A program made the translations under genes and the position numbers. DNA of 64,000 nucleotides from Rhodanobacter sp. LX-99. GTDB lineage: Bacteria; Pseudomonadota; Gammaproteobacteria; Xanthomonadales; Rhodanobacteraceae. The stretch's first letter is position 1, and the number at the start of each line of letters is the position of its first letter. Of the stretch, positions 41,525-55,209 are shown piece by piece. Where the stretch lies: positions 1,364,001 to 1,428,000 of the forward strand of contig NZ_JAHFVL010000001.1 of assembly GCF_018599185.1 (NCBI RefSeq). Reading direction: 5' to 3'. Under the pieces are notes generated by a model. It saw only the letters and a list, made by a program, of their open reading frames with translations. It was not told where the DNA came from and searched no databases.

Positions 41525-43375
41525 TCATTTAACGCGAGCGCGTCGTTCAGCACGATCAAGGGTAGGCTGCAAATCAGGGAGAACCCGTTTGATCAGGTCC
41601 GCATGCCGGTGCCACTTGCCCGGAGCGGGCTCGGTCACGGTGTAACGTGAAAGCGGCAAAGCACCGTCGAATGAGCAATCCCAGTCAAACCCAAGCTCGG
41701 CGCACAGCCGCGCCACCTCTGCCGCAGGGTTCGTAAGGAGCACGTCATAGCGTGCAATATGGCAACGACCAAGCGGCAGCGAATCAAGATCATCGAGCAG
41801 GATGCGTGTGGTGGTGTCCCACTGCGCTGCCACGATCTCAACCAACGGTCGCCCGATGAGGTTACGCCAACCCGGCACCAGCAACAATGACCAAGGCAGG
41901 CCAGTCCAACCAGGAAGGTTCGGATAAGTACGGAATCTGCCGGACTGCCAAGCCTCGATCATGCTGCTCAGGATCTCGCGCGGATCGCGGTGCAGATAGA
42001 TGAACTGTGCTTCCGGAAAAACTTTCGCCAGGAACGGTATGCGCAATGCGTTCTTGGGTGTTTTCTCGAGCAGCCGAAGCGGTCGCTGTTCCGGCGACCT
42101 GCCACTCCGGTCGCGCAGCTCGGCGAGAAAACGGCGCCGCAATGCCTCGATCAGTTCCGGTGACGCTGCAATTGCATCAAGACGGTTGGAGTCATAACCA
42201 AACTCACTTGCGCTCAAGCCAGGGGTGCCTTCGATCAGCGAATGACTTTCGCGGCCAATCGTGTAAAGCCCTGGTGCCTTCGCCAAGGTCTCAAAAAGCA
42301 GGGTAGAACCGGAGCGGGGGGGCGAAATAATGAATACCGGACGATCGTAGATCGGGTCGCGGTCAATTCCATCCGCACGCGGCCCTGGAATGGTGGAGAT
42401 CGTACTCTGGCGCAATTCATCGCCACTACAGGCACGATTGTTGTCACCAATCGCCACTGACAGGACCATGAGTCGCAATGCGACCACCAACGACGAGTCA
42501 TTGACCAATTGCAATTGCGATGCGGAATTCTGCAGCCACTGCTGGTAGGAATTCAGCGCTTTGCGATAGGCAGGCAAACCGGCCGGATCGGTACCATATT
42601 CCGACCACAGCGCCTGCCAGGCGGCAAGAAAGCGCGCTGTCACATGCTTCACTGGCTCCAGTTGCGAATGCGGACGCACCTCATGCAGGAGAAAGGTGAT
42701 GTGCTCTCGCATCTCCCAGGGCGTCATCACGGCAGGCAGGTTGACCGATTCATAGCGTAAGGCAGGGTGGAGTTCGTCAGTCGGCGCAACAAGCTCGGCA
42801 CGCCAGCCCTCAGGCACGTAGTTGCCCGGCATCTGGCCGTCTCTCACCAGTTCCCCGAACCCGTCGCTACCGACGGTATCTGCCACCAGATGAATCCGCT
42901 CGTCGTCGGAGCCATTGATCACTTGATGCTGGCGCCAAGTATCGAATATCCAACACTCACCCGGCCCCATATTCACTTCAACTTCCCCGCATATGAATCG
43001 TACGGTCGGCTTGGTCACGATGGGCACGTGCACACGTGCGCGTGCGCGCCAGTAGTAGTTGACGTCGAAGTGCGGAGTGACCTCGGCGTGACCGGTAAGT
43101 TTCATCAGGCGGGTCCGTCCCCATACGGCGCCAATTCGCGACAGCACCTGCATCAAATAGGGACTTTGCAGAAGATAGGGCGTGGGCCGCATCGCACCCG
43201 AGAAAGACTCATTGTCAGGATTGCCATCGACCGCAATCAACGGTAACCACAAATTGCCGGGATACTTCTGCGGGTGTTCGTGCCAGGCGTCTTCGCCAAA
43301 CATCGCGATCTCCCGCGCGAGTACCTCGGCATCGAACCGTAACGGCAACTGGATAAATGGGACCGGCAGTTTCAC
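41525..43375 (-). CDS. aspartyl/asparaginyl hydroxylase - sulfotransferase fusion
   Basis: 616-residue two-domain protein. Residues about 1-200 match aspartyl/asparaginyl beta-hydroxylase-like dioxygenases (LMKLTGHAEVTPHFDVNYYW with His102 and Asp104, then WIFDTWRQHQVINGSDDERIHLV with His150/162). Residues about 345-616 form a PAPS sulfotransferase: phosphosulfate loop SPPRSGSTLL (351-360), LLEKTPKNALRIPFL and the 3'-phosphate loop LHRDPREILSSM. No signal peptide. The start is GTG at 43375, directly after an in-frame stop; no strong ribosome site. It lies 157 bases downstream of the next sulfotransferase gene. The target of both activities is unknown. Confidence 0.85.
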   Translation of the reverse strand: MKLPVPFIQLPLRFDAEVLAREIAMFGEDAWHEHPQKYPGNLWLPLIAVDGNPDNESFSGAMRPTPYLLQSPYLMQVLSRIGAVWGRTRLMKLTGHAEVTPHFDVNYYWRARARVHVPIVTKPTVRFICGEVEVNMGPGECWIFDTWRQHQVINGSDDERIHLVADTVGSDGFGELVRDGQMPGNYVPEGWRAELVAPTDELHPALRYESVNLPAVMTPWEMREHITFLLHEVRPHSQLEPVKHVTARFLAAWQALWSEYGTDPAGLPAYRKALNSYQQWLQNSASQLQLVNDSSLVVALRLMVLSVAIGDNNRACSGDELRQSTISTIPGPRADGIDRDPIYDRPVFIISPPRSGSTLLFETLAKAPGLYTIGRESHSLIEGTPGLSASEFGYDSNRLDAIAASPELIEALRRRFLAELRDRSGRSPEQRPLRLLEKTPKNALRIPFLAKVFPEAQFIYLHRDPREILSSMIEAWQSGRFRTYPNLPGWTGLPWSLLLVPGWRNLIGRPLVEIVAAQWDTTTRILLDDLDSLPLGRCHIARYDVLLTNPAAEVARLCAELGFDWDCSFDGALPLSRYTVTEPAPGKWHRHADLIKRVLPDLQPTLDRAERRARVK

Positions 43376-43532
43376 TGATTATATTCACTTAGATGGATTG
43401 AACTGTGTCCCGACAGTGGAACTGAATGAGCTGCTTCAGCTCCCATGGGAGTTGACTACTTCATAGTAAAGAAGGGAACATACTCTTTAACCACTCATCA
43501 ATGGAATGACCCCACGCGTTTGCCTCAGCACA

Positions 43533-45089
43533 CTATATGGTGATCGCCTGGCGTAAGGACAGCAGGTGTTCTTCGTAGTGCCGCCACTCCTGGAAAAACC
43601 GTTGGTGAATCGGCTCACGGACCTGGGCCGCGCTGAGGGTTGCGACCACCGCCTTGTTGCTCGTTATATCGACGCAGCCCGGCTCCCACTCCAGGCCACA
43701 GAATGCAAGCGCCTTGCGGGTGGTTGTTTCCGGGTCCCTGACGAGTTCACTGTACGACACGTCATGAATGACCCCCGGCATCGCCGCATGCCAATGGGCC
43801 AGCACCTTCCGGTATTGCAGATAGTGCGCAGCGAGAGCCTGCAGGTCATAGTTCCACGGAAATGATTCACCCATGACCCAGGTACGGAAATTGGAAAAGC
43901 ACACATCCATGGGATCGCGAACCATGTTAAGTATTCGCGCCTGGGGCAGCGCCCGATGGATCATTCCGGCAAGCATCCAGTTGCGCGGCATCTTGTCGAC
44001 GAAAAACCCCGTATCCCGGGCGCGCCATTGCGTCCGCTCCAGGTACCGCCGCCCGATTTCCGTATAATCCAGCCCGGGCAATCGCTCCACGACACCTTCG
44101 TCCAGGATGCTCTGGTTGTTCGCCGCCCAACGAAGCTGCATCCCGAAATCATAGAGTTCGCCTGCGGACGTCACCTGGGAGTGGTTGCTGATCACGCGCT
44201 CCATCAGCGTTGTCCCGGACCGGGGCATGCCGATGATGAAAATGGGTTGCGGCCCTTCGTGGACCACATCCCCAGGTTGAAGAAATTCTGGGGTGCAGCG
44301 CTCGATCAGGCCATTGAACAGGCGCCACGCATAATCGGGATCATGGTTCTGGCGCGCATACATGGTTGCATTGGCGCGCTCCAGTGCGCCCCACGCCTCG
44401 TCATAGCGGCCAAGATCCTCCAGCTCCTTGTAGAGGGCGAACAGGATGATCGCTTCGTCGTCGCTCCCCGGTGTCACCTGCCGCAACTGCTGTCTCAGTC
44501 GGTCCAGGTGATTGCGCTCGGCGGTCTGCTTGCGCACTCTGGAAAGCGAGAGTGTCGTCATGCCGTCCAGCGGTCTCAGACAAAGGCTCGCCTCCAGTTC
44601 GGCCTCGCCCTCCTGCAGATGCCCGTTGAAGATCAACGCATGCGCACGATCGAATCTGAACTCGGGGCTGTTCATGCCTGCAGCCTCAGCGCGATTCAGC
44701 AAGGCCAATGACCCCTCATGATCGCCAAGAATGCGGCGCAGCTTTGCCATTCGGGCAAGCCTCGGCGCGTCACTGATTCGCGCAACGGCGGCATGGTTCA
44801 AGGTGTCCCGCGCCACCACCGTTTCACCCACCTGTAGCAACGCATCCACGACATCGACGATCAACTCCGGGTCGTCCGACAGATGGCTCACGGCGGTCAA
44901 TGCCAGCGCGGTCGCCGCTTGCACCCGTCCATCTTCCAGCGCAATTGCGTGAAGAGCCAACATCGAAGGAACATGCGTGGGATTTCGCTGGATCAGCGAC
45001 TCCAGAGCAATGCGTGCTGCCATTGTCTGGCCACTGAGCAGATAGCGCTGGGCTCGCCCCCAGTACTTGGCTGTTGTTGCATCAGACAT
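43533..45089 (-). CDS. TPR-domain sulfotransferase
   Basis: 518-residue protein. Residues 1-265 are helical TPR-like repeats (RYLLSGQTMAARIALESLIQ... GSLALLNRAEAAG... GRYDEAWGALERAN), likely a substrate-docking arm. Residues 280-518 are a sulfotransferase domain with IIGMPRSGTTLMERV (PAPS loop, 289-294), FVDKMPRNWMLAGMI, ILNMVRDPMDVCFSNF and REPIHQRFFQEWRHYEEHL. No export signal. ATG at 45089. It probably shares a transcript with the fusion gene downstream. Substrate unknown. Confidence 0.9.
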   Translation of the reverse strand: MSDATTAKYWGRAQRYLLSGQTMAARIALESLIQRNPTHVPSMLALHAIALEDGRVQAATALALTAVSHLSDDPELIVDVVDALLQVGETVVARDTLNHAAVARISDAPRLARMAKLRRILGDHEGSLALLNRAEAAGMNSPEFRFDRAHALIFNGHLQEGEAELEASLCLRPLDGMTTLSLSRVRKQTAERNHLDRLRQQLRQVTPGSDDEAIILFALYKELEDLGRYDEAWGALERANATMYARQNHDPDYAWRLFNGLIERCTPEFLQPGDVVHEGPQPIFIIGMPRSGTTLMERVISNHSQVTSAGELYDFGMQLRWAANNQSILDEGVVERLPGLDYTEIGRRYLERTQWRARDTGFFVDKMPRNWMLAGMIHRALPQARILNMVRDPMDVCFSNFRTWVMGESFPWNYDLQALAAHYLQYRKVLAHWHAAMPGVIHDVSYSELVRDPETTTRKALAFCGLEWEPGCVDITSNKAVVATLSAAQVREPIHQRFFQEWRHYEEHLLSLRQAITI

Positions 45090-45504
45090 CTTGAATTGCG
45101 CCGGCGATTGCGGTCATGGATCAGGGTGAAGCAGCAGTAAGTTGGTCAATGGCCCGAACGGCATGCAAACGCATCCGTGCTCGTCATCGATTTGGTCATC
45201 ATGCTCTCAGATTGAACTTCGACGCGCCAGCTCGTGCCTCTTTCAGCAAGCAGCGAGCCTGAGAGATGTCACCTGATCCTGCTGAGCGTGAGTTGCACCA
45301 AGGCTGTTTGCGTCATCGAACTGACGAGTCTGGTTGGCGACTACAGGGGAAGTGCATCAATGAAAGCAGGCGACGGAGCGCCGCTGGGAAACAGCGTCAA
45401 AAATCAACCGATAATCATCATTTCGGCGCAACCATGCCGATGTTTTGGCGCGACAGCCAGAACGGCCATCTGGACTTTAATTGATCTGAGCGTCCCTGGC
45501 GCAG
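45090..45504. other. 415-base gap without convincing gene
   Basis: The gap between the TPR-hydroxylase gene and the TPR-sulfotransferase gene holds only weak open frames on the plus strand (45234-45530, 45266-45484) with no ribosome sites and no recognisable motif. It is AT-richer than the flanks. It should contain the promoter of the minus-strand gene at 45089, but I see no clear consensus boxes. Confidence 0.5.
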
Positions 45505-46815
45505 CTAGGCAAGTCCGGTCGCCTGGTTGAAATCGCCGATAGCCTCCACCAAGTCCGTCACCGCGAGGCGTTCGGCCTCGCTGAGATCCGGATTCCAGCA
45601 ATCCAGAATGAGCACGACCCGGGTTTCGTCACTGCGGTTCCATGCCTCGTGCACAAAGGTGTCGTCGAAGGAGACGCAGTGACCTTCCCTCCAGATGTGG
45701 TCTTCGCCACCCACGCGAAGCGCGCAATCGGACGGAACCATGAGCGGAAGATGAGTTACCAGACGCGTGTTGGTGACGCCAGTGTGCGGCAGGATATGGG
45801 CACCCGGACTCAGCACAGAGAAAAGCGTTTCAGGCGCGTGATCACGAATTCGCACCAGTGGCAAGGTGTCGAGCAGGCTCGCGGTTTGCGGACACGCCAT
45901 GCAATTTGCGTCGTAGCGCTTGCCATGACGGTAGAAAAAGTATGCGTCCCACGCGGCGGGCCGGTCACTGGAGGAGCTGAGCATTTCCCCGGCTTTCTCG
46001 GGAGACTGCACACCGAGGAATGGCTCCAGCTGACGATCCTTCGACAGCACCGCGCGCAACTCCTCATTGACAGCGTCGGTTGTCGCCTCCAGCTCCTCCA
46101 GCCAGGGGAAGCGCTCGCGCGGATAGAACGGCTGGCTCGGGATGTCGGGAAAGTACAGGAATGTCGGCTTCTGGCGCTGATCCGGGACGTTCTTAGGCTG
46201 CTCGCCCAGATAGATGGCTAGGCAATGTTCCACCCGTACCAGTTCGGACCTGCCGTAGCGTTGCTGTAGCGGAGCCAGTACCTCGCTGAACAACCGCTGG
46301 CGCCCCTCATTGGCATAGTTCATGGCGTACTTGACCACGACACGCAGCGCTGGCGCCGTGGTGCCATCATCAAGCCAGCGCCCCTTCAGTTGCGCTGTTC
46401 GTATCGCGGTGAAGTAGGCCAGAAGCGCCTCATGCGCACGCCCCAACTGCTCCAGCGCGATACCCAGCTGCAGACGCGCAACGAAGGCTTGCGGTGTCCG
46501 CGCCAAGGCGGTTTCGAGGCTGACCGCGGCGGCGCTGAAATCGCCCGCTGCGAGCTGGGCCGAACCCAGCTGGCTCAGAACGGCGGGGTCCTCCGGTTTG
46601 ACCCGATCGGCGTCTCGCAAGAGTTTGATTGCCTGGGCGTGATCATTGCGGGCAAGATGACGATCAGCGAGAAACTGCAACGCCTGCACGTCATCCGGCG
46701 CAACTCCGTGAAGACGGGCAAAGCACTTTTCGGCCAGTTCAGCCTCGCCGCGACGCAGATGTTCCAGCGCCATCAACCGGTATGTCTCGGGGGTTGCTTG
46801 CTGCAAGTCGTTCAT
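45505..46815 (-). CDS. TPR-linked aspartyl/asparaginyl beta-hydroxylase
   Basis: 436-residue protein. Residues 1-140 form TPR repeats (MALEHLRRGEAELAEKCFAR, DHAQAIKLLRDADRVKPEDP, GDFSAAAVSLETALARTP). Residues 215-420 form a 2-oxoglutarate/Fe(II) dioxygenase of the AspH type: ILPHTGVTNTRLVTHLPLM (His344), DDTFVHEAWNRSDETRVVLILD (His389 and the 2-oxoglutarate-binding Arg399), and DCWNPDLSEAER. A cluster of Cys residues (YDANCMACPQ) is present. No signal peptide. It is divergent from the next sulfotransferase gene. Enzymes of this family hydroxylate Asp/Asn side chains; the target here is unknown. Confidence 0.88.
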   Translation of the reverse strand: MNDLQQATPETYRLMALEHLRRGEAELAEKCFARLHGVAPDDVQALQFLADRHLARNDHAQAIKLLRDADRVKPEDPAVLSQLGSAQLAAGDFSAAAVSLETALARTPQAFVARLQLGIALEQLGRAHEALLAYFTAIRTAQLKGRWLDDGTTAPALRVVVKYAMNYANEGRQRLFSEVLAPLQQRYGRSELVRVEHCLAIYLGEQPKNVPDQRQKPTFLYFPDIPSQPFYPRERFPWLEELEATTDAVNEELRAVLSKDRQLEPFLGVQSPEKAGEMLSSSSDRPAAWDAYFFYRHGKRYDANCMACPQTASLLDTLPLVRIRDHAPETLFSVLSPGAHILPHTGVTNTRLVTHLPLMVPSDCALRVGGEDHIWREGHCVSFDDTFVHEAWNRSDETRVVLILDCWNPDLSEAERLAVTDLVEAIGDFNQATGLA

Positions 46816-46883
46816 CGCTCCGGCTTCATTCTCGCGTTGGCTGGTACCGACACCTTGCCGCGTCTACGGGCCGATCACAAAGG

Positions 46884-46889
46884 TATAAT
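46884..46889 (+). promoter_or_regulatory. possible -10 box (TATAAT)
   Basis: An exact TATAAT lies in the 197-base divergent gap, 124 bases before the plus-strand sulfotransferase start. No good -35 box is present at 16-18 bases (TTGCCG lies 23 bases upstream), so this is a weak candidate. Confidence 0.3.
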
Positions 46890-47012
46890 ACGCGTTCACG
46901 CGGCGCCACCGTCGGCGTGTCGAAGCCAGCCACGAGTCATACCGCGTCTGGTAGGCGTACAACACATCGGAACAGCTCCCATGGCGCCGCCACCGGCAAC
47001 CCGGAGTGAAGA

Positions 47013-48587
47013 ATGACGACCCGCCTCGATGGGCTGACAGTGACTGCCGTGCAACAGGTGGTGGCTGCAGGACAAGCACTGGACGCAGGCCGCATCGACC
47101 AGGCCAGCCGCTATCTGGCCAGCGTCACGGCGGCACATCCCGATCACCCGGAAGTGCTGCGCATGTTGGCCGGCATCCAGGGTATGCAAGGTCAACACCA
47201 GGAGTCGGTCCGCACGATGCGCCGCGCGCTGGCACAGCGACCTGGCGATCCCGCTTATCACAACACCCTAGGCACCCTGCTTGGCCAGGCCGGCGAATAC
47301 GATGCCGCCATCACGGCGCTGCGACACACCTGCGAGCTGCAGCCGGACATGGCCATCGCCTGGTACAACCTCGGCGTGATGCTGGTGCGCTCGGTGCGCA
47401 ATGAAGAGGCGTTATACGCACTGCAACAAGCTGTAGCGCTCGACCCCCATCACATGTCGGCACGAGCGCTGTTGGCCGACATGTTGCGCATGCGCGGTGA
47501 AACCGGGCAGGCCGAGACGGAGTATCGGCGGGTAATCGCGGAGCAGTCTTGGGCAGGCATGGCGTGGTGGGGACTGGCTGACCTCCGGACGCAGTGTCTT
47601 GTCGAGAGCGATATTCAGAAAATGCAGCAGGCACTGCGCGAACCACGGGCCAGCGACGACGACCTTATGGCGATCGGCTTCGCCCTGGCCAGGGCGTATG
47701 ACGAAGCAGGGCAATATGCGGAATCACTTGAGGCGCTCGCCTCCGCCAACGCCATTGCACATCGTCGCCGGACCTGGGATCGACGGGGCTACTCGACGGC
47801 GATTTCTTCGCTCAATGCGGCCTTTACGCCGCCCCCTGCGGGCGCGCCGCGGGGACTAGGTGAAGAGGTTGTCTTCATCGTCGGCCTGCCGCGCTCCGGC
47901 TCGACCCTGGTCGAGCAGATACTGGCGTCACATTCAATGGTGAACGGTGCCGGCGAGCTGCCCGACCTACCCCAGGTATTGGCCGAAGAGTCACGACGTC
48001 GCGGTCAGCACTTTCCGCGCTGGGTCAATGCCATGCGGCCAGCCGACTGGGAGCGGCTGGGCCAGCGCTATCTCGAACGTACTGCGTATTGGCGAAAGAC
48101 GCGGCAGCGCTCCACGGACAAACTGCCAGGCAACTGGATCTACCTCGGTGCGATTCGCGCGATGCTTCCCGGTGCGCACATCATCGGCTGCCAACGCGAC
48201 CCTCTGGAGACCTGTTTCTCTTGCTATCGCCAGCGCCTGGATAACAATGAATACACGCGAAACTTCGACGATCTCGCAAGCTTCTGGCGGGACTGCGAGC
48301 GCAGTTTGCGGCACTGGCACAACCTGCACCCGTCGAAGGTACTGATCCATGATTACGAGGCCATGCTGGCAGAACCGACTGCCCGCATTCGCGAGTTGCT
48401 GGAATTCTGCAATCTGCCGTTCGAGGAAGCCTGCCTGCGATTCCACGAGAACACGCGCGAAGTGCGTTCACCCAGCGCAACCCAGGTGCGCCAGCCATTG
48501 ACGGCGAACACTGCCAGAACGGATCGTTACGGCGCCCTGCTCGACCCGTTGCGTACCGCGTTGGGTTTGCCTGTATGGAGCAACTGA
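47013..48587 (+). CDS. TPR-domain sulfotransferase
   Basis: 524-residue protein with six or more TPR units in residues 10-250 (LDAGRIDQASRYLASVTAAH, GQHQESVRTMRRALAQRPGD, GEYDAAITALRHTCELQPD, NEEALYALQQAVALDPHH). A sulfotransferase domain follows: VFIVGLPRSGSTLVEQIL (PAPS loop 293-298), STDKLPGNWIYLGAI, IIGCQRDPLETCFSCY and VRQPLTANTARTDRYGAL at the end. CGGAG precedes the ATG at 47013. It is the first gene of a plus-strand pair. Substrate unknown. Confidence 0.9.
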   Translation: MTTRLDGLTVTAVQQVVAAGQALDAGRIDQASRYLASVTAAHPDHPEVLRMLAGIQGMQGQHQESVRTMRRALAQRPGDPAYHNTLGTLLGQAGEYDAAITALRHTCELQPDMAIAWYNLGVMLVRSVRNEEALYALQQAVALDPHHMSARALLADMLRMRGETGQAETEYRRVIAEQSWAGMAWWGLADLRTQCLVESDIQKMQQALREPRASDDDLMAIGFALARAYDEAGQYAESLEALASANAIAHRRRTWDRRGYSTAISSLNAAFTPPPAGAPRGLGEEVVFIVGLPRSGSTLVEQILASHSMVNGAGELPDLPQVLAEESRRRGQHFPRWVNAMRPADWERLGQRYLERTAYWRKTRQRSTDKLPGNWIYLGAIRAMLPGAHIIGCQRDPLETCFSCYRQRLDNNEYTRNFDDLASFWRDCERSLRHWHNLHPSKVLIHDYEAMLAEPTARIRELLEFCNLPFEEACLRFHENTREVRSPSATQVRQPLTANTARTDRYGALLDPLRTALGLPVWSN

Positions 48588-48667
48588 CAGGATCTGGGGT
48601 GACTGCGTCGAAGTGCATCCCTGCCGCGTTCGATGCTCGAGCCCGCGCATCGTAAGGTCGCTTTGCA

Positions 48668-50308
48668 ATGAATCATTCTACCGAAAGCGCTTCCGGCCAC
48701 CTCAGCCACGCTGACCTAGCCTTGGCCGCATACGATCGTCAATGCTCCGCCCACGCTCACGACGCGTTGACTGATGCTCTCACCGGTGCACCGGAGCCGG
48801 CGTGGCTGGAATGCGCCCGAACGCTGATTCTGCGTGGTGACGCCGAGGCGACGCTGGCCGTTCTGGACGCTGCATTGGCGCAGTTCCCCGCATCCAGCGA
48901 AGTACGGCTGGCGCTGGCTGGCATCGCGTTTCAACAGGGAGCAAGCGAACGCGCGGAATCACTGCTACGCAGCATACTCGATGATGACTCGGACTGCGTC
49001 GCAGCAACCTTCCAACTGGCGCGGCTGCTGAAGGAGCAAGGACGGATGCATGCCGTTGCGTCGGTGATTTGCGCCGGGTTCCGCCATGAGCGGCATGATG
49101 CCGAGCTGGTGATCCGTGGTGTCGAAATGCTCGACGACTGCGGCCGCAAGCGTGAAGCGGCAGCGTTATGCGAACGGGAAATCGCCGCGGGGTCCCGCGA
49201 CACCCGCCTGCATGCCTATGCGGGCATGCTGCTGACCCAGCTAGGTCAGTTCGAGCTCGCCCGCACTCGACAGGAATATGTACTCGATCACGACCCAGCC
49301 GGACTGGAATGGCATGTCCCCCTGGGCCTCACCGGGCTGCAGCGCTACACGGACGGCAGTCATCCCGACTTCGCCCGATTACGCCAGTATCTTTTGCTAC
49401 CCGATCTCAGCGAACAGGCGCGTGCCTCCGTGCTGTTCGGGCTGGGCAAGGCACACGATGACATTGGTGAGTACGCCTTGGCCAGCACCTACCTGCGCCA
49501 AGCAAATGCCATCGTCCACAACGTCAAGCGCTGGCCACGAAAACGCTGGCGGCGAAGCATCGGGGCAAGAATCGACCGCACCCTGCCGCCCCAAAAGCTT
49601 GCTGCATTCACGGACTGGACGCCTCTGTTCATTATCGGCCTGCCCCGCTCCGGCACTACCCTGCTGGCCGAACGACTGGCCCGACATCCCGATATCTGCC
49701 AGCGCGGCGAGCTGCCCTGGCTTCCCATACTGGCCGAACAGGTCGTCACAGGCGACGGTGGATATCGCGAGCGCCTTCAACGAGCAGCGACGACCTATGC
49801 AGCCCAACTGCGCCAGGATGATTCAGGCGCACACTGGATGCTCGATAAGCAGCCGCACAACTTCATGCATGTCGATTTGATCCTAGCGCTGTTTCCGAAT
49901 GCCCGCTTCCTCTATTGCAAGCGCCATGCACGTGACAACGCGCTTTCATTGTGGATGCAGTCGTTTCAGGCTGGAACGCAGGATTATGCCTATGACTTCA
50001 CCGACATCGGCGCTATTATCCAAGGCTCCCGCCGACTGATGAAACACTGGTTGACACGCTATCCTGATGCCATCCGCGCAGTCGAATACGAACACCTGGT
50101 CTCGGCGCCCGCAAGCGTGCTGCGCAGCGTAATGGACTGGCTTGAACTGCCGCCGCATGATCTGCTCTCCAGCGATACCGGTGGCAACTCCATCATCAGC
50201 ACCGCAAGCCTGTGGCAGGCTCGACAACCGATCAACACGCGGTCGCTTCACCGGTGGGAAAATTACGCCGCGTACGTGCCCGAGTTGCTCCAGCTTCCGG
50301 ACAACTGA
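48668..50308 (+). CDS. TPR-domain sulfotransferase
   Basis: 546-residue relative of the preceding gene, 80 bases downstream. TPR-like helices run from about 15 to 290 (AEATLAVLDAALAQFP, ERAESLLRSILDDDS, GEYALASTYLRQANAI). The sulfotransferase part has LFIIGLPRSGTTLLAERL (326-331), MLDKQPHNFMHVDLIL, FLYCKRHARDNALSLWM and WQARQPINTRSLHRWENY. No export signal. It converges with the next gene, with 16 bases between stops. The differing TPR arms imply different docking partners. Confidence 0.9.
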   Translation: MNHSTESASGHLSHADLALAAYDRQCSAHAHDALTDALTGAPEPAWLECARTLILRGDAEATLAVLDAALAQFPASSEVRLALAGIAFQQGASERAESLLRSILDDDSDCVAATFQLARLLKEQGRMHAVASVICAGFRHERHDAELVIRGVEMLDDCGRKREAAALCEREIAAGSRDTRLHAYAGMLLTQLGQFELARTRQEYVLDHDPAGLEWHVPLGLTGLQRYTDGSHPDFARLRQYLLLPDLSEQARASVLFGLGKAHDDIGEYALASTYLRQANAIVHNVKRWPRKRWRRSIGARIDRTLPPQKLAAFTDWTPLFIIGLPRSGTTLLAERLARHPDICQRGELPWLPILAEQVVTGDGGYRERLQRAATTYAAQLRQDDSGAHWMLDKQPHNFMHVDLILALFPNARFLYCKRHARDNALSLWMQSFQAGTQDYAYDFTDIGAIIQGSRRLMKHWLTRYPDAIRAVEYEHLVSAPASVLRSVMDWLELPPHDLLSSDTGGNSIISTASLWQARQPINTRSLHRWENYAAYVPELLQLPDN

Positions 50309-50324
50309 GCGGGCCCTGCAGGCG

Positions 50325-52154
50325 TCAAACGGGCGCATCCACCGCATAGCCCCAGTGATCCAGCATGGGCTGCAGAATAGGCAGGACGGGCACCAGCGCC
50401 TCTCGATAGCGTACCCATCGGTCGAGCCCCTTGCGGTTCACCGGCACGATCACTTGAGTGTAACTTGGTGTGGCGATATACCCCTTGTCGCGCGCGCGCT
50501 GATCGAAGTTCAGCATCGCAGAGGCATCTTCAAGGCCTATGAACTCGGCGATCTTGCGGGTCTGCCCCACCGTATCGGCAACCAATTCCTCGTACCGCGA
50601 AACGAAGACGTTGGGCTTGAACACCTCGACATGATCAAGCCAGCATTCCATCGCGGCGACGTAGGCCTTGGCCAGCTGAGGCAGCGATTCACAAGCCATC
50701 GCCAGTACGGTCGAACGGAAGTTCTGCATGTAGTTGCTCAGCAACACGTCACATGGGTGACGCAGCGCCAATATGATTTTTGCCTCCGGAAAGAGACGAT
50801 GAATCATTGGTAACCACAACATGTTGAGCGGATTCTTGTCCACCAGTTGTGTGTCCCATCGACGTGGAACCTTGGTACACACCATGCTTACGTAGGCTTT
50901 GCGCAGCTCGTCACAATTGCGCTGGTCGAGCTTGTACATGTCCCGTGGAAACTGGAATTCATGGTTGTCCAGTCGATCGGCAAGAACGTTGAAGAACGGC
51001 CGTTCGTCCATTGACTGCAGTTTTGGATGCGCATCCAGCATCTGTTCAAGCAAGGTTGTCCCGGAACGCGGGAACCCGACGATAAAGACGGGGGAGTGCG
51101 CTGCATCGGGAGCGCTGAGTGTCGGCCATGTGCGGTAGTCCTGTGCCGTCACCCGGCCTATCGCGGTCGGAATGATGGGCGCGTCCGGTGCGAAACGATC
51201 CGGCACAACCGCACGCATTTCCTCTGTCTGCAGTGCATGTGCCGACTCCAGCGCCTGAAGTGCTCCGGCGATATCACCGAGCTTGTCGCACACACCCGCC
51301 AGCATGAAGTAGTGAGTGTAGTCGTCGGTGGTGCGCGGCCCGGCGAGCTCAAGCATGCTTCTTGCGGCAGCGAGGGCGCCCCTGCGCGCCGCGAGCGAGG
51401 CACGCTGATGCGCGATTTCGAGGCGCACCATGTCCTCGGATGCATGCTGCCCGGCTTCGACCTCCCGCAACTTGGCTTCGGCCAGATCCAACTGGTTGAC
51501 CCTTTCATAGACGCTCGCCAGCAGCAGTTGCGCCTGCAGGTGCAACGGCTCCCGCGCCAGCAGCTCCTCGAGTAACGCCTGCACCGAGTTGGCGTCGCCC
51601 AGCATCAGTTGCAGCATGGCCAGCTCGAACTGCTCCTCCGGCTCCAGGGACAACCAGCCACGCCATGGCTTGAGCAGTTCGTCCACCCGTTGATCATCCC
51701 TGCAGGCGGCGCAGGCACGCGCCGCATGGATCCGGACTGACGGAGCATCTGGCTCAATTGCAAACGCATCCAGCAAGGTGTCTCGCGCCTCGACGAAATG
51801 ACGCTGTTGCAACTGCAGCATGCCCAGATTGAGCATCTGCTCGGTATTCTTTGGGTCCAACCGCAGTGAAGCACGGTACGTCTCTTCAGCCTCATCCAGG
51901 GCACCGGCATCTCGCAATGCGGTGGCATGGTTGCCCACATGCAGACTGTTTTCCGGAAACAGCCGTGCCAGCTCCGCATATACCGGCAGGGCTTCCTGGA
52001 ATTTCTGCTGCTGTTGCAGACTCAGAGCCAGTAAGAAAAGCAGCTCTTCATCCCCCCCATGCCGTTCCAGCTGAGACCGGGCGAGCTGTTCCGCCTCGGC
52101 AAGTTGGCCGCTCTGGAACGCGGCGAGAATTCCCTGTTTCGCTTGTGTCGTCAT
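50325..52154 (-). CDS. TPR-domain sulfotransferase, downstream of TonB receptor
   Basis: 609-residue protein. TPR units fill residues 5-320 (GQLAEAEQLARSQLERHG, FQEALPVYAELARLFPENS, LDEAEETYRASLRLDPKN). The sulfotransferase part has VFIVGFPRSGTTLLEQML (362-367), LVDKNPLNMLWLPMI, IILALRHPCDVLLSNYM and PVNRKGLDRWVRYREAL. The ATG at 52154 is chosen because AGGA lies just upstream. That ribosome site touches the T-tract of the receptor's terminator, so expression needs read-through or an overlapping promoter. Substrate unknown. Confidence 0.9.
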   Translation of the reverse strand: MTTQAKQGILAAFQSGQLAEAEQLARSQLERHGGDEELLFLLALSLQQQQKFQEALPVYAELARLFPENSLHVGNHATALRDAGALDEAEETYRASLRLDPKNTEQMLNLGMLQLQQRHFVEARDTLLDAFAIEPDAPSVRIHAARACAACRDDQRVDELLKPWRGWLSLEPEEQFELAMLQLMLGDANSVQALLEELLAREPLHLQAQLLLASVYERVNQLDLAEAKLREVEAGQHASEDMVRLEIAHQRASLAARRGALAAARSMLELAGPRTTDDYTHYFMLAGVCDKLGDIAGALQALESAHALQTEEMRAVVPDRFAPDAPIIPTAIGRVTAQDYRTWPTLSAPDAAHSPVFIVGFPRSGTTLLEQMLDAHPKLQSMDERPFFNVLADRLDNHEFQFPRDMYKLDQRNCDELRKAYVSMVCTKVPRRWDTQLVDKNPLNMLWLPMIHRLFPEAKIILALRHPCDVLLSNYMQNFRSTVLAMACESLPQLAKAYVAAMECWLDHVEVFKPNVFVSRYEELVADTVGQTRKIAEFIGLEDASAMLNFDQRARDKGYIATPSYTQVIVPVNRKGLDRWVRYREALVPVLPILQPMLDHWGYAVDAPV

Positions 52155-52163
52155 GGCAGTCCT

Positions 52164-52199
52164 GAAAAAAAGAGCCGCGCGATGGTTCGCGCGGCTCTT
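52164..52199 (-). terminator. strong rho-independent terminator after TonB receptor
   Basis: A perfect 11-base-pair stem (AGAGCCGCGCG) with a six-base loop, followed on the minus strand by seven T residues. It starts 32 bases past the receptor stop and ends 10 bases before the ATG of the TPR-sulfotransferase gene. Confidence 0.9.
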
Positions 52200-52230
52200 C
52201 AACATACAACTTTTACAGGAAGTTACTCGA

Positions 52231-55209
52231 TCAGAACTTGACCGTCACGCGAGCCCAGAAGTAGCGACCGATCAGGTCGAAGTCGCTCGGATCGGTGTTT
52301 GCGTTCAGCGTGTTGTTCGCATAGAGGAACGGCGGCTGCTTGTCGAACAGATTGTTCACACCGAAATCGACACGGGTGTTGAACGGCTCGATGTTGTAAC
52401 CCACCGAAACGTCGTTGTAGATCGTAGCGCCGTACTTAAGCACCACGCCGGTTGCGTTGCAGTGATTACCTTGCGGCTTGCCCTCGTAGTAGCACACGCC
52501 ACCCGGGAACGTATCCTGGCTCGGGCTCTTCGAACCGTTCTGGAAGCTGCCGATGTAACGCATGCGCCAGGACGCATCCCAGTTGCCCAGATTCCAGTTC
52601 AGGTAACCCTGCCCACGCCAGCGCGGGAACAGGCAGACGCCACCGCCACTGGGGCAGGCTGCAGCTTGCGCCGAGCCGAACGGCATGAAGTGGCCGGCAT
52701 CATGATAGATCGCATTGGCATCGCTACCCGGCGCCGTCTGCTGATCCCAACGCGACAGGTAGGTTGCATCCAGACCGATCGTGAAGGTGCCGAAAGAGAA
52801 CTGCGGCAGCTTGTAGCGCAGCGACATGTCCACGCCGCCCGCATCGGTACGGCCGAGGTTGCCGGTCGGCTCGATGATGTTGTCGATCTGCCCAGCGTTA
52901 ACGTTGCCAGCCGGGAAACGCTTGATCAGCGGGCAGTACGTGGTTTCACCGGCGTAGCACAGGTTGAGCACCGTCTGCGCACCAATGGTGGTGATGGTGT
53001 CGTTCAGGTAGATCTTCCAGATGTCCACGCTGGCCGACAGGCCCGGGACGTAGCTCGGCGAGTAAACGATGCCCCAGTCGAAGGACTTGCCCTTCTCCGG
53101 CCCGATCGGGATGCCCGCGTACTGGGCACCGGCCGCCACGCCCTTGATCTGCTGACCCGCCGCCACATCGGAGTTGGTGAAGCTGCCGTCAGTGGGCACG
53201 CCCACGCAAGCGGGGTTGCCGGGGGTAGTAATGCCGTTGCAGGGGTCGTTGCTGAGCTTCGGCGCGTCGCTCGCCGCTGCACCGAACTTGTCGAGGACGG
53301 TCGGAGCGCGGAACACGTCCGACACGGTGGCACGCAACAGGAGGTCGTTGATCGGGCGATATTCCACCGCGAACTTCTTGCTGTTGTTGGTGCCGAACAG
53401 GTTGAACTTGGAATAACGGTCGCCGATCGTGACGTTCAAGTTCTGCACACCCGGCAGATCCTTCAGTATCGGCACGAACACTTCGGCGTAGACTTCCTTC
53501 GAGTTGTAGCCACCCTGCAGCGGCGAAGCGCACTGACTGCCCAGCGTGCAGTTCAAGGTTGTTGGATCAATCAACAGCAACGGGTCGACCGTGCTGTTGG
53601 TGTACTCCTTGCGATAGCCAGCGCCAGCCGCCAGTTGCACGGTACCGGCCGGCAGATCGAACAAGCCACCGTTGACGTCAATGGAGTAGACCTTCTCGAT
53701 CCGGTGAGCGTTGCTGATCGCGGGAACGGCAGCGGCCTGCAAGGCAGCGACTGACTGCGGGTCAAACATGTTGAACGGATTGAACGGAACGCAGCCGGCA
53801 GCGCCCGAATCGCAGACCACCTTGCCAGTAGCAGGGTCGAGATGGGACGGCCCCAGATCGGCATTGATCTTGTCTGTGTTCGGCAGGCCACGGGTAATCA
53901 GATCCTGCGAGAAATGGCCATAGCTCATCCCGGCGTCCCAGTTCCAACTCTGGTCGAGGATGGTGAAGTCACCCTTCAGTCCGGCATGAACCTGATCGGT
54001 CGAGGTGCCATAGTTGGCGCTGCGGTTGCCGGCGGAAACCAGGCGCACGCGGAAATCGTTGCCGCCCGGTACGAAGTCTTGGCCAAACGGGTTGTAATAG
54101 CTGTCCTTCGAGATCATCGCGCCGTAGGCGGTGCCGTACAAGGCCGGCGCCAGCTGGAAGCCCGACGTCGTCTTGTTGTGATAGGCATCCATGTAGGCCG
54201 TCACGTGTTCACCCAGATTGTAGGTGCCGTTGACGAACAAGCTGGTGCGTTCCTGCGGGGTCTGGATCAGGTTGACGCTGGCGTAGTTGTATTTGTCGGC
54301 ATTGGTGAAGCAGTGGTAATCGGTCGCCGGGTTCTGACCGCTAGCGCCGGCATTCGCCACACCGTACTTGCAGCCCAGGGTTGCCTGCAGAGCGGCCGGC
54401 AGCTGGACGCGACCGTGGGCGTTGAAGGTCGAACCACCGATGTAGCTGGCGATCGGGGTGCTCTTGGTGCCATAGAGCGACACCGCGTTCTCGGAGAACT
54501 TGCGACTGCTGGCGAGGATCGCATCCGACTTGTTGTAGTCGATGCCGGCAACGATGCTGCCCTTGTCCGAAGTCTGGCCGAACGTAAACGTGGCGCCACG
54601 CGAGGTGCCATCGTTGTGGTCGGACTCACCATAGTTCACCGAAACTTGGGCGCCCTGATAATCCTTCTTCAGGATGAAGTTGACCACGCCGCCGATCGCG
54701 TCGGAGCCATAGACCGAAGACGCGCCGTCGGTCAGCACCTCGACGCGCTCGATCATGTCCGCCGGGATCGAGTTCGGATCCTGATTGATGATGCGCTTGC
54801 CGTTGATCAGCAGCAGGGTGCGCTGGGAACCGAGGCCGCGCAAGCCGATCGAGCTGCCGCCGGTGCCGCCGCTGTTGTTGACCTGCGGGTTGATGTTGCC
54901 ACCGGTCACCGCCGGCAGCTGCTGCACGATGTCGCCCAGCGTGAGCTTGCCGGTGGCCTTGATCTGCGCGGCATCAATGGTCACGACCGGGTTGGACGTT
55001 TCCAGGTCCACGCGGCGGATGTGCGAGCCGGTGACCACGACGGTCTGCAGTGTTTTTGCGTTTTCTTGGCCGGATTGATTGGTCGCATTCTGGCTGCCCG
55101 TATCTTGGTCTTGGGCAAACGCCGTGCCCGAAGCGCCTACCGCGATGACAGCACCCAGCGAAAGCGCCAGACGGACTGCCGAAGAAAGTTTCTTGACCCC
55201 AAGTTTCAT
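52231..55209 (-). CDS. TonB-dependent outer-membrane receptor
   Basis: 992-residue receptor that would import a large ligand using TonB energy. Signal peptide about 1-33 (ends GTAFA). A TonB-box-like TLQTVVVTGSHI and a plug domain follow (NPVVTIDAAQIKATGKLTLG, GSSIGLRGLGSQRTLLLINGKR, SIPADMIERVEVLTDGASSVYGSDAIGGVVNF). A 22-strand barrel ends in ARVTVKF with terminal Phe. Several Cys pairs occur in barrel loops (TLGCKYG, VVCDSGAAGC). GGAGG sits nine bases before the ATG at 55209. No substrate is evident, but sulfotransferase genes fill the neighbourhood. Confidence 0.93.
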   Translation of the reverse strand: MKLGVKKLSSAVRLALSLGAVIAVGASGTAFAQDQDTGSQNATNQSGQENAKTLQTVVVTGSHIRRVDLETSNPVVTIDAAQIKATGKLTLGDIVQQLPAVTGGNINPQVNNSGGTGGSSIGLRGLGSQRTLLLINGKRIINQDPNSIPADMIERVEVLTDGASSVYGSDAIGGVVNFILKKDYQGAQVSVNYGESDHNDGTSRGATFTFGQTSDKGSIVAGIDYNKSDAILASSRKFSENAVSLYGTKSTPIASYIGGSTFNAHGRVQLPAALQATLGCKYGVANAGASGQNPATDYHCFTNADKYNYASVNLIQTPQERTSLFVNGTYNLGEHVTAYMDAYHNKTTSGFQLAPALYGTAYGAMISKDSYYNPFGQDFVPGGNDFRVRLVSAGNRSANYGTSTDQVHAGLKGDFTILDQSWNWDAGMSYGHFSQDLITRGLPNTDKINADLGPSHLDPATGKVVCDSGAAGCVPFNPFNMFDPQSVAALQAAAVPAISNAHRIEKVYSIDVNGGLFDLPAGTVQLAAGAGYRKEYTNSTVDPLLLIDPTTLNCTLGSQCASPLQGGYNSKEVYAEVFVPILKDLPGVQNLNVTIGDRYSKFNLFGTNNSKKFAVEYRPINDLLLRATVSDVFRAPTVLDKFGAAASDAPKLSNDPCNGITTPGNPACVGVPTDGSFTNSDVAAGQQIKGVAAGAQYAGIPIGPEKGKSFDWGIVYSPSYVPGLSASVDIWKIYLNDTITTIGAQTVLNLCYAGETTYCPLIKRFPAGNVNAGQIDNIIEPTGNLGRTDAGGVDMSLRYKLPQFSFGTFTIGLDATYLSRWDQQTAPGSDANAIYHDAGHFMPFGSAQAAACPSGGGVCLFPRWRGQGYLNWNLGNWDASWRMRYIGSFQNGSKSPSQDTFPGGVCYYEGKPQGNHCNATGVVLKYGATIYNDVSVGYNIEPFNTRVDFGVNNLFDKQPPFLYANNTLNANTDPSDFDLIGRYFWARVTVKF

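Follow-up and report, generated by a model that had tools for sequence, protein, structure and literature searches.

A conserved locus of sulfotransferases and AspH-type hydroxylases adjoining a TonB-dependent receptor in Rhodanobacter sp. LX-99

Results

The locus and its enzymes

Rhodanobacter sp. LX-99 is a soil-type bacterium. The window is the whole 64,000-nt stretch of its DNA that was analysed, and the coordinates of the locus, 41525..55209, are positions in that window. The locus consists of seven genes, g1-g7, assigned with Pfam and, for g7, by its Plug domain (PF07715) and hydropathy:

g1, 41525..43375, minus strand: AspH-type 2OG dioxygenase domain (N-terminal) fused to a PF13469 sulfotransferase (ST) domain (C-terminal), 616 aa
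g2, 43533..45089, minus strand: TPR and PF13469 ST, 518 aa; an optional member
g3, 45505..46815, minus strand: TPR and AspH-type hydroxylase, 436 aa
g4, 47013..48587, plus strand: TPR and PF13469 ST, 524 aa
g5, 48668..50308, plus strand: TPR and PF13469 ST, 546 aa
g6, 50325..52154, minus strand: TPR and PF13469 ST; the tightest partner of the receptor
g7, 52231..55209, minus strand: TonB-dependent receptor (TBDR), 992 aa, with a signal-like N-terminus

The g6 product may start at 52154 (609 aa) rather than where its ORF opens, at 52205, because most of its homologues among the 120 matches listed are ~600-620 aa long; three close ones are 627 aa. Ten flanking ORFs were scanned; five matched a family (GDSL lipase, aminotransferase, glutaredoxin/rhodanese, nucleoside phosphorylase, DUF4124) and five matched none, and a RaxST/RaxX-like type I exporter with peptidase was not among the ten. 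The best Fur box match 5' of g7 scored 10/19, the same as in shuffles. Because the locus holds 5 of the genome's 12 PF13469 matches, and because the arrangement is conserved as described below, the clustering of these genes is not chance. Elsewhere in the genome, contig 4 carries a second set (L039:8697-16763) with a TPR-AspH gene, a g6-type ST, a g7-like TBDR and a second AspH gene, and there are two more TBDR-ST pairs of other kinds (L040:6996-11673, L041:6138-11094).

PF13469 scored 97-161 bits in g1, g2, g4, g5 and g6, with a cut-off of 27, and the PAPS P-loop reads PRSGST or PRSGTT in all five STs, each time followed by a [DE]KxPxN motif. The AspH model PF05118 (cut-off 22.6) scored 160 bits in g3 and 50 bits in the N-terminal part of g1. 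TPR models matched g2-g6, that is, five of the seven proteins and five of the six enzymes; Pfam gave no TPR match in g1. By a hydropathy check, g7 alone has a signal-like N-terminus, and g1-g6 have none. The preliminary description, made from the DNA letters, had claimed five STs with intact PRSG-S/T-T loops, two AspH-type domains, TPR arms on five proteins, a 992-residue TonB receptor and an export signal on the receptor alone; all of this held up, with g7 starting at 55209 and its Plug domain scoring 82 bits.

The best solved relatives of g1, g2, g5 and g6 are TPST1 and TPST2, Golgi enzymes without TPR arms. The similarity is weak, with the same P-loop and the same Glu position: the Glu following the P-loop in these four proteins lines up with the second of the two Glu in the GEET stretch of TPST, presumably the TPST base, and in g4, too, this position is Glu. 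The top solved relative of g2 is the protein-tyrosine sulfotransferase 8w5z (E 7e-8). With the ST domain alone as query, g6 matched TPST at E 4e-17 over ~250 residues and g5 matched TPST1 at E 6e-10; g1 gave a partial alignment with a protein-tyrosine sulfotransferase at E 5.6e-5. For g4, TPST1 (E 2.9e-5) was about level with CurM (E 2.6e-5), a polyketide-pathway sulfotransferase. AspH was the top solved relative of g3 (E 4e-28), with the PHTG and FxHE stretches of the PF05118-type domain aligned around both His and the TPR region weakly matched. AspH is an ER enzyme that acts on EGF-like domains, whereas g7 had no Pfam match besides Plug at E 0.01. Among the nearest relatives of the g1 AspH domain are a solved 'Beta-hydroxylase' and proline hydroxylases. 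The nearest NCBIfam catalytic models for g3 are OlsC and LpxO, and by the equivalog cut-offs g3 is neither, with 106.8 of 450 bits for OlsC and 78 of 500 for LpxO. Two APS kinase domains are encoded in the genome, and therefore PAPS can be made.

Conservation around g7-like receptors

To the preliminary description had been attached, beforehand, a check of gene neighbourhoods in related bacteria. For this, 80 stretches around g7-like receptors were fetched, picked mostly top-down from a similarity list, with skips; a gene's type was its best BLAST match among g1-g6, anywhere in the stretch (up to 20 kb) and with no identity floor. Among the fetched loci, 47 have a receptor with 45% or more identity to g7; of these, 43 contain a g6-type ST, 30 a g5-type, 23 a g4-type, 21 a g3-type TPR-AspH and 7 a g2-type, and three loci contain none of the types. 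Conserved sets of TBDR, TPR-ST and AspH genes thus do recur in relatives (g6-type 43/47, g3-type 21/47). Across several genera the usual block reads TBDR>> g6>> <<g5 <<g4 >>g3. The closest case is a Rhodanobacter sp. 67-28 MAG (L171), whose seven genes are collinear with those of the window at 76-88% identity, the receptor being cut by the end of the stretch. All seven types are also present, in a different order, in Rhodanobacter sp. C01 and C05 and in Dyella sp. S184 (L168-L170). The description's further idea, that the enzymes are parallel specialists, fits these loci: counterparts of g2, g4, g5 and g6 can be told apart as types in different genera, and most genomes examined below keep several receptor-ST pairs. 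A short (~300 aa) ST adjoins the TPR-AspH gene in several loci (L113:793-1794, L115:1014-1937).

The loci collected gave 94 g7-like TBDRs at 35% identity or more; nine of these came from loci retrieved with g1 or as ST loci of the window's own genome, and the window's receptor is counted among the 94. An ST lay within 5 kb in 77/94, and a g6-type ST lay directly downstream on the same strand in 60/94; for the 84 rows fetched by receptor similarity (L088-L167) the corresponding figures were 67/84 and 51/84. On a FastTree tree of the 94 receptors, built with a long-branch warning, ST linkage required 7 changes, against a shuffled mean of 15.8, and none of 500 shuffles was as low. Ten of the 17 unlinked receptors form one clade, and because a GH127 and/or GH35-like neighbour is present in 8/10 of its loci, this clade looks like one of sugar uptake. 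No glycoside hydrolase was found in 18 further stretches scanned, where many of the ORFs were probably in the wrong frame. Across the class, g6-type matches at E 1e-50 occurred in 11 of 369 genomes, with at most three candidates scored per genome; two of the 11 are in the window's family, its own genome included.

Receptor-ST linkage independent of g7

Linkage between STs and TBDRs in general was examined in seven genomes, six of them single-contig and the seventh represented by contig 1 of the window's own genome; the other contigs of that genome, the contig 4 pair among them, and the second half of one split match in G083 were dropped from the count. Plug matches were those listed, with 11 of the 161 from one underlying search left out. 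Of 39 strong ST loci, 27 lay within 4.5 kb of a TBDR plug, against a rotation mean of 3.0, and 0/2000 rotations gave as many. The 39 omit 12 hand-marked weak ST matches, namely all below 75 bits and one of 83 bits (G006:3148991, with no plug near); with weak matches included, 28/50 were near a plug versus a null mean of 3.9.

Twenty-seven adjacent TBDR-ST pairs, three convergent and the rest on one strand, were drawn from 29 loci of the seven genomes, two loci having no pair. In 19/27 pairs, the nearest relatives in other genomes agreed for both partners; when partners were shuffled within genomes the mean was 3.3 and the maximum 14 of 27, and 0/2000 shuffles reached 19. Across genomes, pair distances of ST and TBDR correlated with a rho of 0.52 (307 comparisons), and within genomes they showed no significant correlation (rho 0.22, p 0.16, 44 comparisons). 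Several kinds of TBDR-ST pair, each kept together, coexist in six of the seven genomes. As judged by these sequence comparisons, receptors and STs are inherited in stable pairs, of which there are several kinds. Joint descent shows a functional link; it does not name a substrate. In one pair of loci from different genomes (L041:6138-11094 and L248:8561-13477) the receptors are 90% alike and the STs 54% alike, so there the enzyme changes much faster than the receptor.

The AspH-ST fusion

Matches like g1 (E 1e-60) were found in 42 of the 147 genomes of the family. Both domains are present in 119/120 g1 homologues among the matches listed. Across 35 aligned fusion proteins, 34 of them relatives of the window's own at 48-86% identity, H102, D104, H150 and R160 are invariant, as are P353, R354, G356, S357, E376, K438, R463 and S471 of the ST half; we take these to be the metal, 2OG and PAPS residues. 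The AspH and ST halves are separate adjacent matches in G067. Nine genomes have the AspH half without the ST half at E 1e-60. A g7-like TBDR lies within 2.8 kb of it in 8/9, and a g6-type ST is present too in 6/6 of those eight that were fetched; the locus of the ninth genome, G044, has no g7-like TBDR. A joint hydroxylation and sulfation role is supported by the fusion and by the AspH-half-only genes near g7-like receptors, and hydroxylase and sulfotransferase thus probably belong together.

The loci of fusion relatives, taken as the best 80 of 175 found in named genomes, include Pseudoxanthomonas, Arenimonas, Dokdonella and Caulobacterales. In 5/9 Pseudoxanthomonas loci (L195, L205, L230-L232) the fusion immediately follows a different TBDR and shares its strand. 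No TBDR plug was found within 8 kb in 62/80 fusion loci, some of them on short contigs and one of them L171, counted here although it contains part of the receptor, and 59/80 loci had no other ST beside the fusion, which speaks against a strict tie. In several loci the stand-alone fusion has thiC or a ferritin-like gene beside it; the ~626-aa protein that recurs next to stand-alone fusion genes proved to be ThiC. A separate second copy of the AspH half adjoins the fusion at L069:8785-11743, L072:2726-5610 and L074:8489-11385. A 2OG-FeII_Oxy_3 gene (PF13640) stands amid the STs of several other sets, for example at L133:13205-13882 (plus strand).

Recurring neighbours and the search for a precursor

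Small ORFs in the gaps of the clusters were compared (2476 ORFs of at least 22 aa, 225 gaps, 76 clusters), and for the 15 largest families as many as seven members each were viewed. No precursor peptide was recognised among these 15 families; the largest, with 73 loci, lumps together high-GC frames, and a small precursor family could be concealed in it. One or two representatives were scanned for seven of eleven recurring neighbour families. Six are nucleoside phosphorylase, 2OG-FeII_Oxy_3, GH127, GH35-like, a type II/IV secretion ATPase (recurring in six loci) and an AraC-type regulator; no peptide- or siderophore-assembly enzyme (NRPS/PKS) and no inner-membrane uptake gene was among the families identified. 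Because neither a precursor nor an assembly enzyme was recognised, the receptor is the obvious non-enzyme partner of the block.

The seventh scanned family is a barrel-like exported protein of ~340 aa, without a Pfam match in the four members scanned (e.g., L110:5530-6573, plus strand). It has matches in 144 of the 147 family genomes, one per genome in all but two; many of these, that of the window's own genome (G000:C3:518575-518961) included, cover the C-terminal part only. The gene lies upstream of the receptor, at ~2.3 kb or less, in 30 loci, and all 30 proteins end in the tail PY[VI]QYxQ[DT]L. With two Tyr near an acidic end, this tail could possibly be a sulfation site, or simply an odd barrel-end signal.

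Receptor residues

The g7 product has the features of a TonB-dependent receptor: a Plug domain, ~1000 residues and a signal-like N-terminus. The Plug match was its sole Pfam match at E 0.01, no barrel profile scoring. Its nearest solved relatives are the colicin I receptor, BtuB and ferric enterobactin receptors, with the best stretch in the plug region. For nine residue letters, the unlinked clade of 10 was set against 60 g6-linked receptors. Five columns differed, one of them a Tyr (Y234), which is present in 76/77 linked rows (Phe in the linked L039). Y234 was rejected as a site that tracks the enzymes: it is also present in 8/17 unlinked rows, and because the rows that lack it, bar L039, form one clade that holds all nine such unlinked rows, it gives no independent support. 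Tyr was not enriched in linked receptors, making up 4.50% of residues (n = 77) versus 4.81% (n = 17) in unlinked ones, and Tyr, Asp and Glu content showed no enrichment with linkage. The preliminary description had proposed that the enzymes hydroxylate and sulfate a common class of target. The joint role gains from the fusion and from the TBDRs near the AspH half (8/9), whereas for the common target, no receptor residue cleanly tracking the enzymes was found among 77 linked and 17 unlinked receptors.

Discussion

The reading that we prefer, tentatively and with a probability of about 0.4, is that the locus encodes a dedicated cytoplasmic, TPR-guided module that would hydroxylate and sulfate its cognate outer-membrane receptor before export. 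Its observed basis is the enzyme classes as read from sequence, the intact motifs, the lack of signal-like N-termini on the enzymes, the conserved linkage to the receptor and the co-descending pairs. We infer from these the receptor as substrate, the residues modified, the order of steps and the effect. Counting against this reading are the receptor comparison, in which no residue cleanly tracked the enzymes and Tyr was not enriched, the fusion loci that lack a plug within 8 kb (62/80) and the non-significant correlation of ST and TBDR distances within genomes. The site of action would be the cytoplasm, where PAPS and 2-oxoglutarate are available. Before export, the receptor or a part of it would be bound by the enzymes' TPR arms; AspH-type dioxygenases would hydroxylate Asp/Asn-type side chains, and TPST-like sulfotransferases would sulfate Tyr or other hydroxyls, with both reactions carried out partly by one fused enzyme, g1. 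Sec would then export the modified receptor, which would take its place in the outer membrane, where its sulfates may alter ligand binding, or recognition by phages or hosts. A bolder proposal, and in our estimate a long shot, is that the AspH-ST fusion hydroxylates an Asp/Asn-type residue and then sulfates the new hydroxyl, in receptors with adjoining enzyme genes; we know of no sulfated beta-hydroxy residue in proteins.

The enzymes could instead modify a substance that the receptor imports, such as a siderophore- or RiPP-like peptide or small ligand, much as MbnS has been proposed to sulfate the methanobactin taken up by MbnT. A sulfotransferase (MbnS) and a TonB-dependent transporter (MbnT) do occur together in methanobactin operons (PMC3621798), and CurM among the solved relatives of the STs, like the 'Beta-hydroxylase' and proline hydroxylases near the AspH domain of g1, would suit such a role. 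A secreted peptide or siderophore product would lead one to expect a precursor, assembly enzymes or an exporter, but no precursor, NRPS/PKS or inner-membrane uptake gene was among the neighbours identified (7/11 families sampled), although a very short or divergent precursor might escape notice, and we consider this origin of the arrangement unlikely. The methanobactin set also differs in having a PF00685 enzyme, a precursor peptide, MbnB/MbnC and a MATE exporter, none of which was recognised at the g1-g7 locus. Quite improbable, in our view, is that the enzymes modify an envelope lipid or other surface molecule and that the receptor is a co-regulated neighbour. The nearest NCBIfam models of g3, OlsC (107 bits) and LpxO (78 bits), are lipid hydroxylases, and a barrel-like exported protein lies near some of the sets; yet those scores are far under the cut-offs (450 and 500 bits), and both the TPR arms and the several distinct co-kept TBDR-ST pairs per genome would be left unexplained. 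That a recombination-prone neighbourhood has gathered enzymes with unrelated targets and no common substrate, as the varying gene order and the frequency of AspH-ST fusions without receptor or other ST might suggest, is likewise improbable in our view, given one block that reappears in different genera and whose members can each be recognised as a type of its own.

RaxST is found in bacteria related to the window's host. The nearest published systems to the module proposed here are RaxST (PMC4216712) and the methanobactin pair MbnS/MbnT (PMC3621798). In Xanthomonas, RaxST is PAPS-dependent and has tyrosine sulfotransferase activity in vitro; its proposed substrate is a molecule with a leader, modified before it is secreted (PMC4216712). 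RaxST and the STs of the locus are alike in being bacterial PAPS-dependent sulfotransferases, but raxST sits with a type I secretion system (PMC4216712), whereas the locus combines several STs, most with TPR arms, with AspH domains and a TonB receptor. Modification before export has a parallel in the BAHT/NGT systems, in which autotransporters bound for the outer membrane are glycosylated in the cytoplasm; they share with the proposed module cytoplasmic enzymes and outer-membrane-bound protein targets, and differ in glycosylating autotransporters rather than sulfating and hydroxylating TonB receptors (PMC8151025). A literature search covering titles and abstract openings among the matches listed, with few subscription papers and no bioRxiv preprints in its reach, returned no description of such a set, and, with the same reach (few subscription papers, no preprints), no use of the phrase 'TPR sulfotransferase'.

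The conserved arrangement suggests that the receptor, or something that it handles, is chemically modified in an undescribed way. Nutrients, antibiotics and phages all enter cells through TonB-dependent receptors. Should the enzymes act on a ligand, the loci would mark sulfated compounds that the usual cluster-finding programs overlook. Should they act on the receptor itself, this receptor class would be one of sulfated, hydroxylated bacterial proteins, each with its own tailored set of enzymes. The relatives of g6 and g1 are, among the matches listed, mostly unnamed or named by their sulfotransferase or repeat parts alone, and at least 4873 proteins related to g6 and at least 3742 related to g1 would gain a testable partner.
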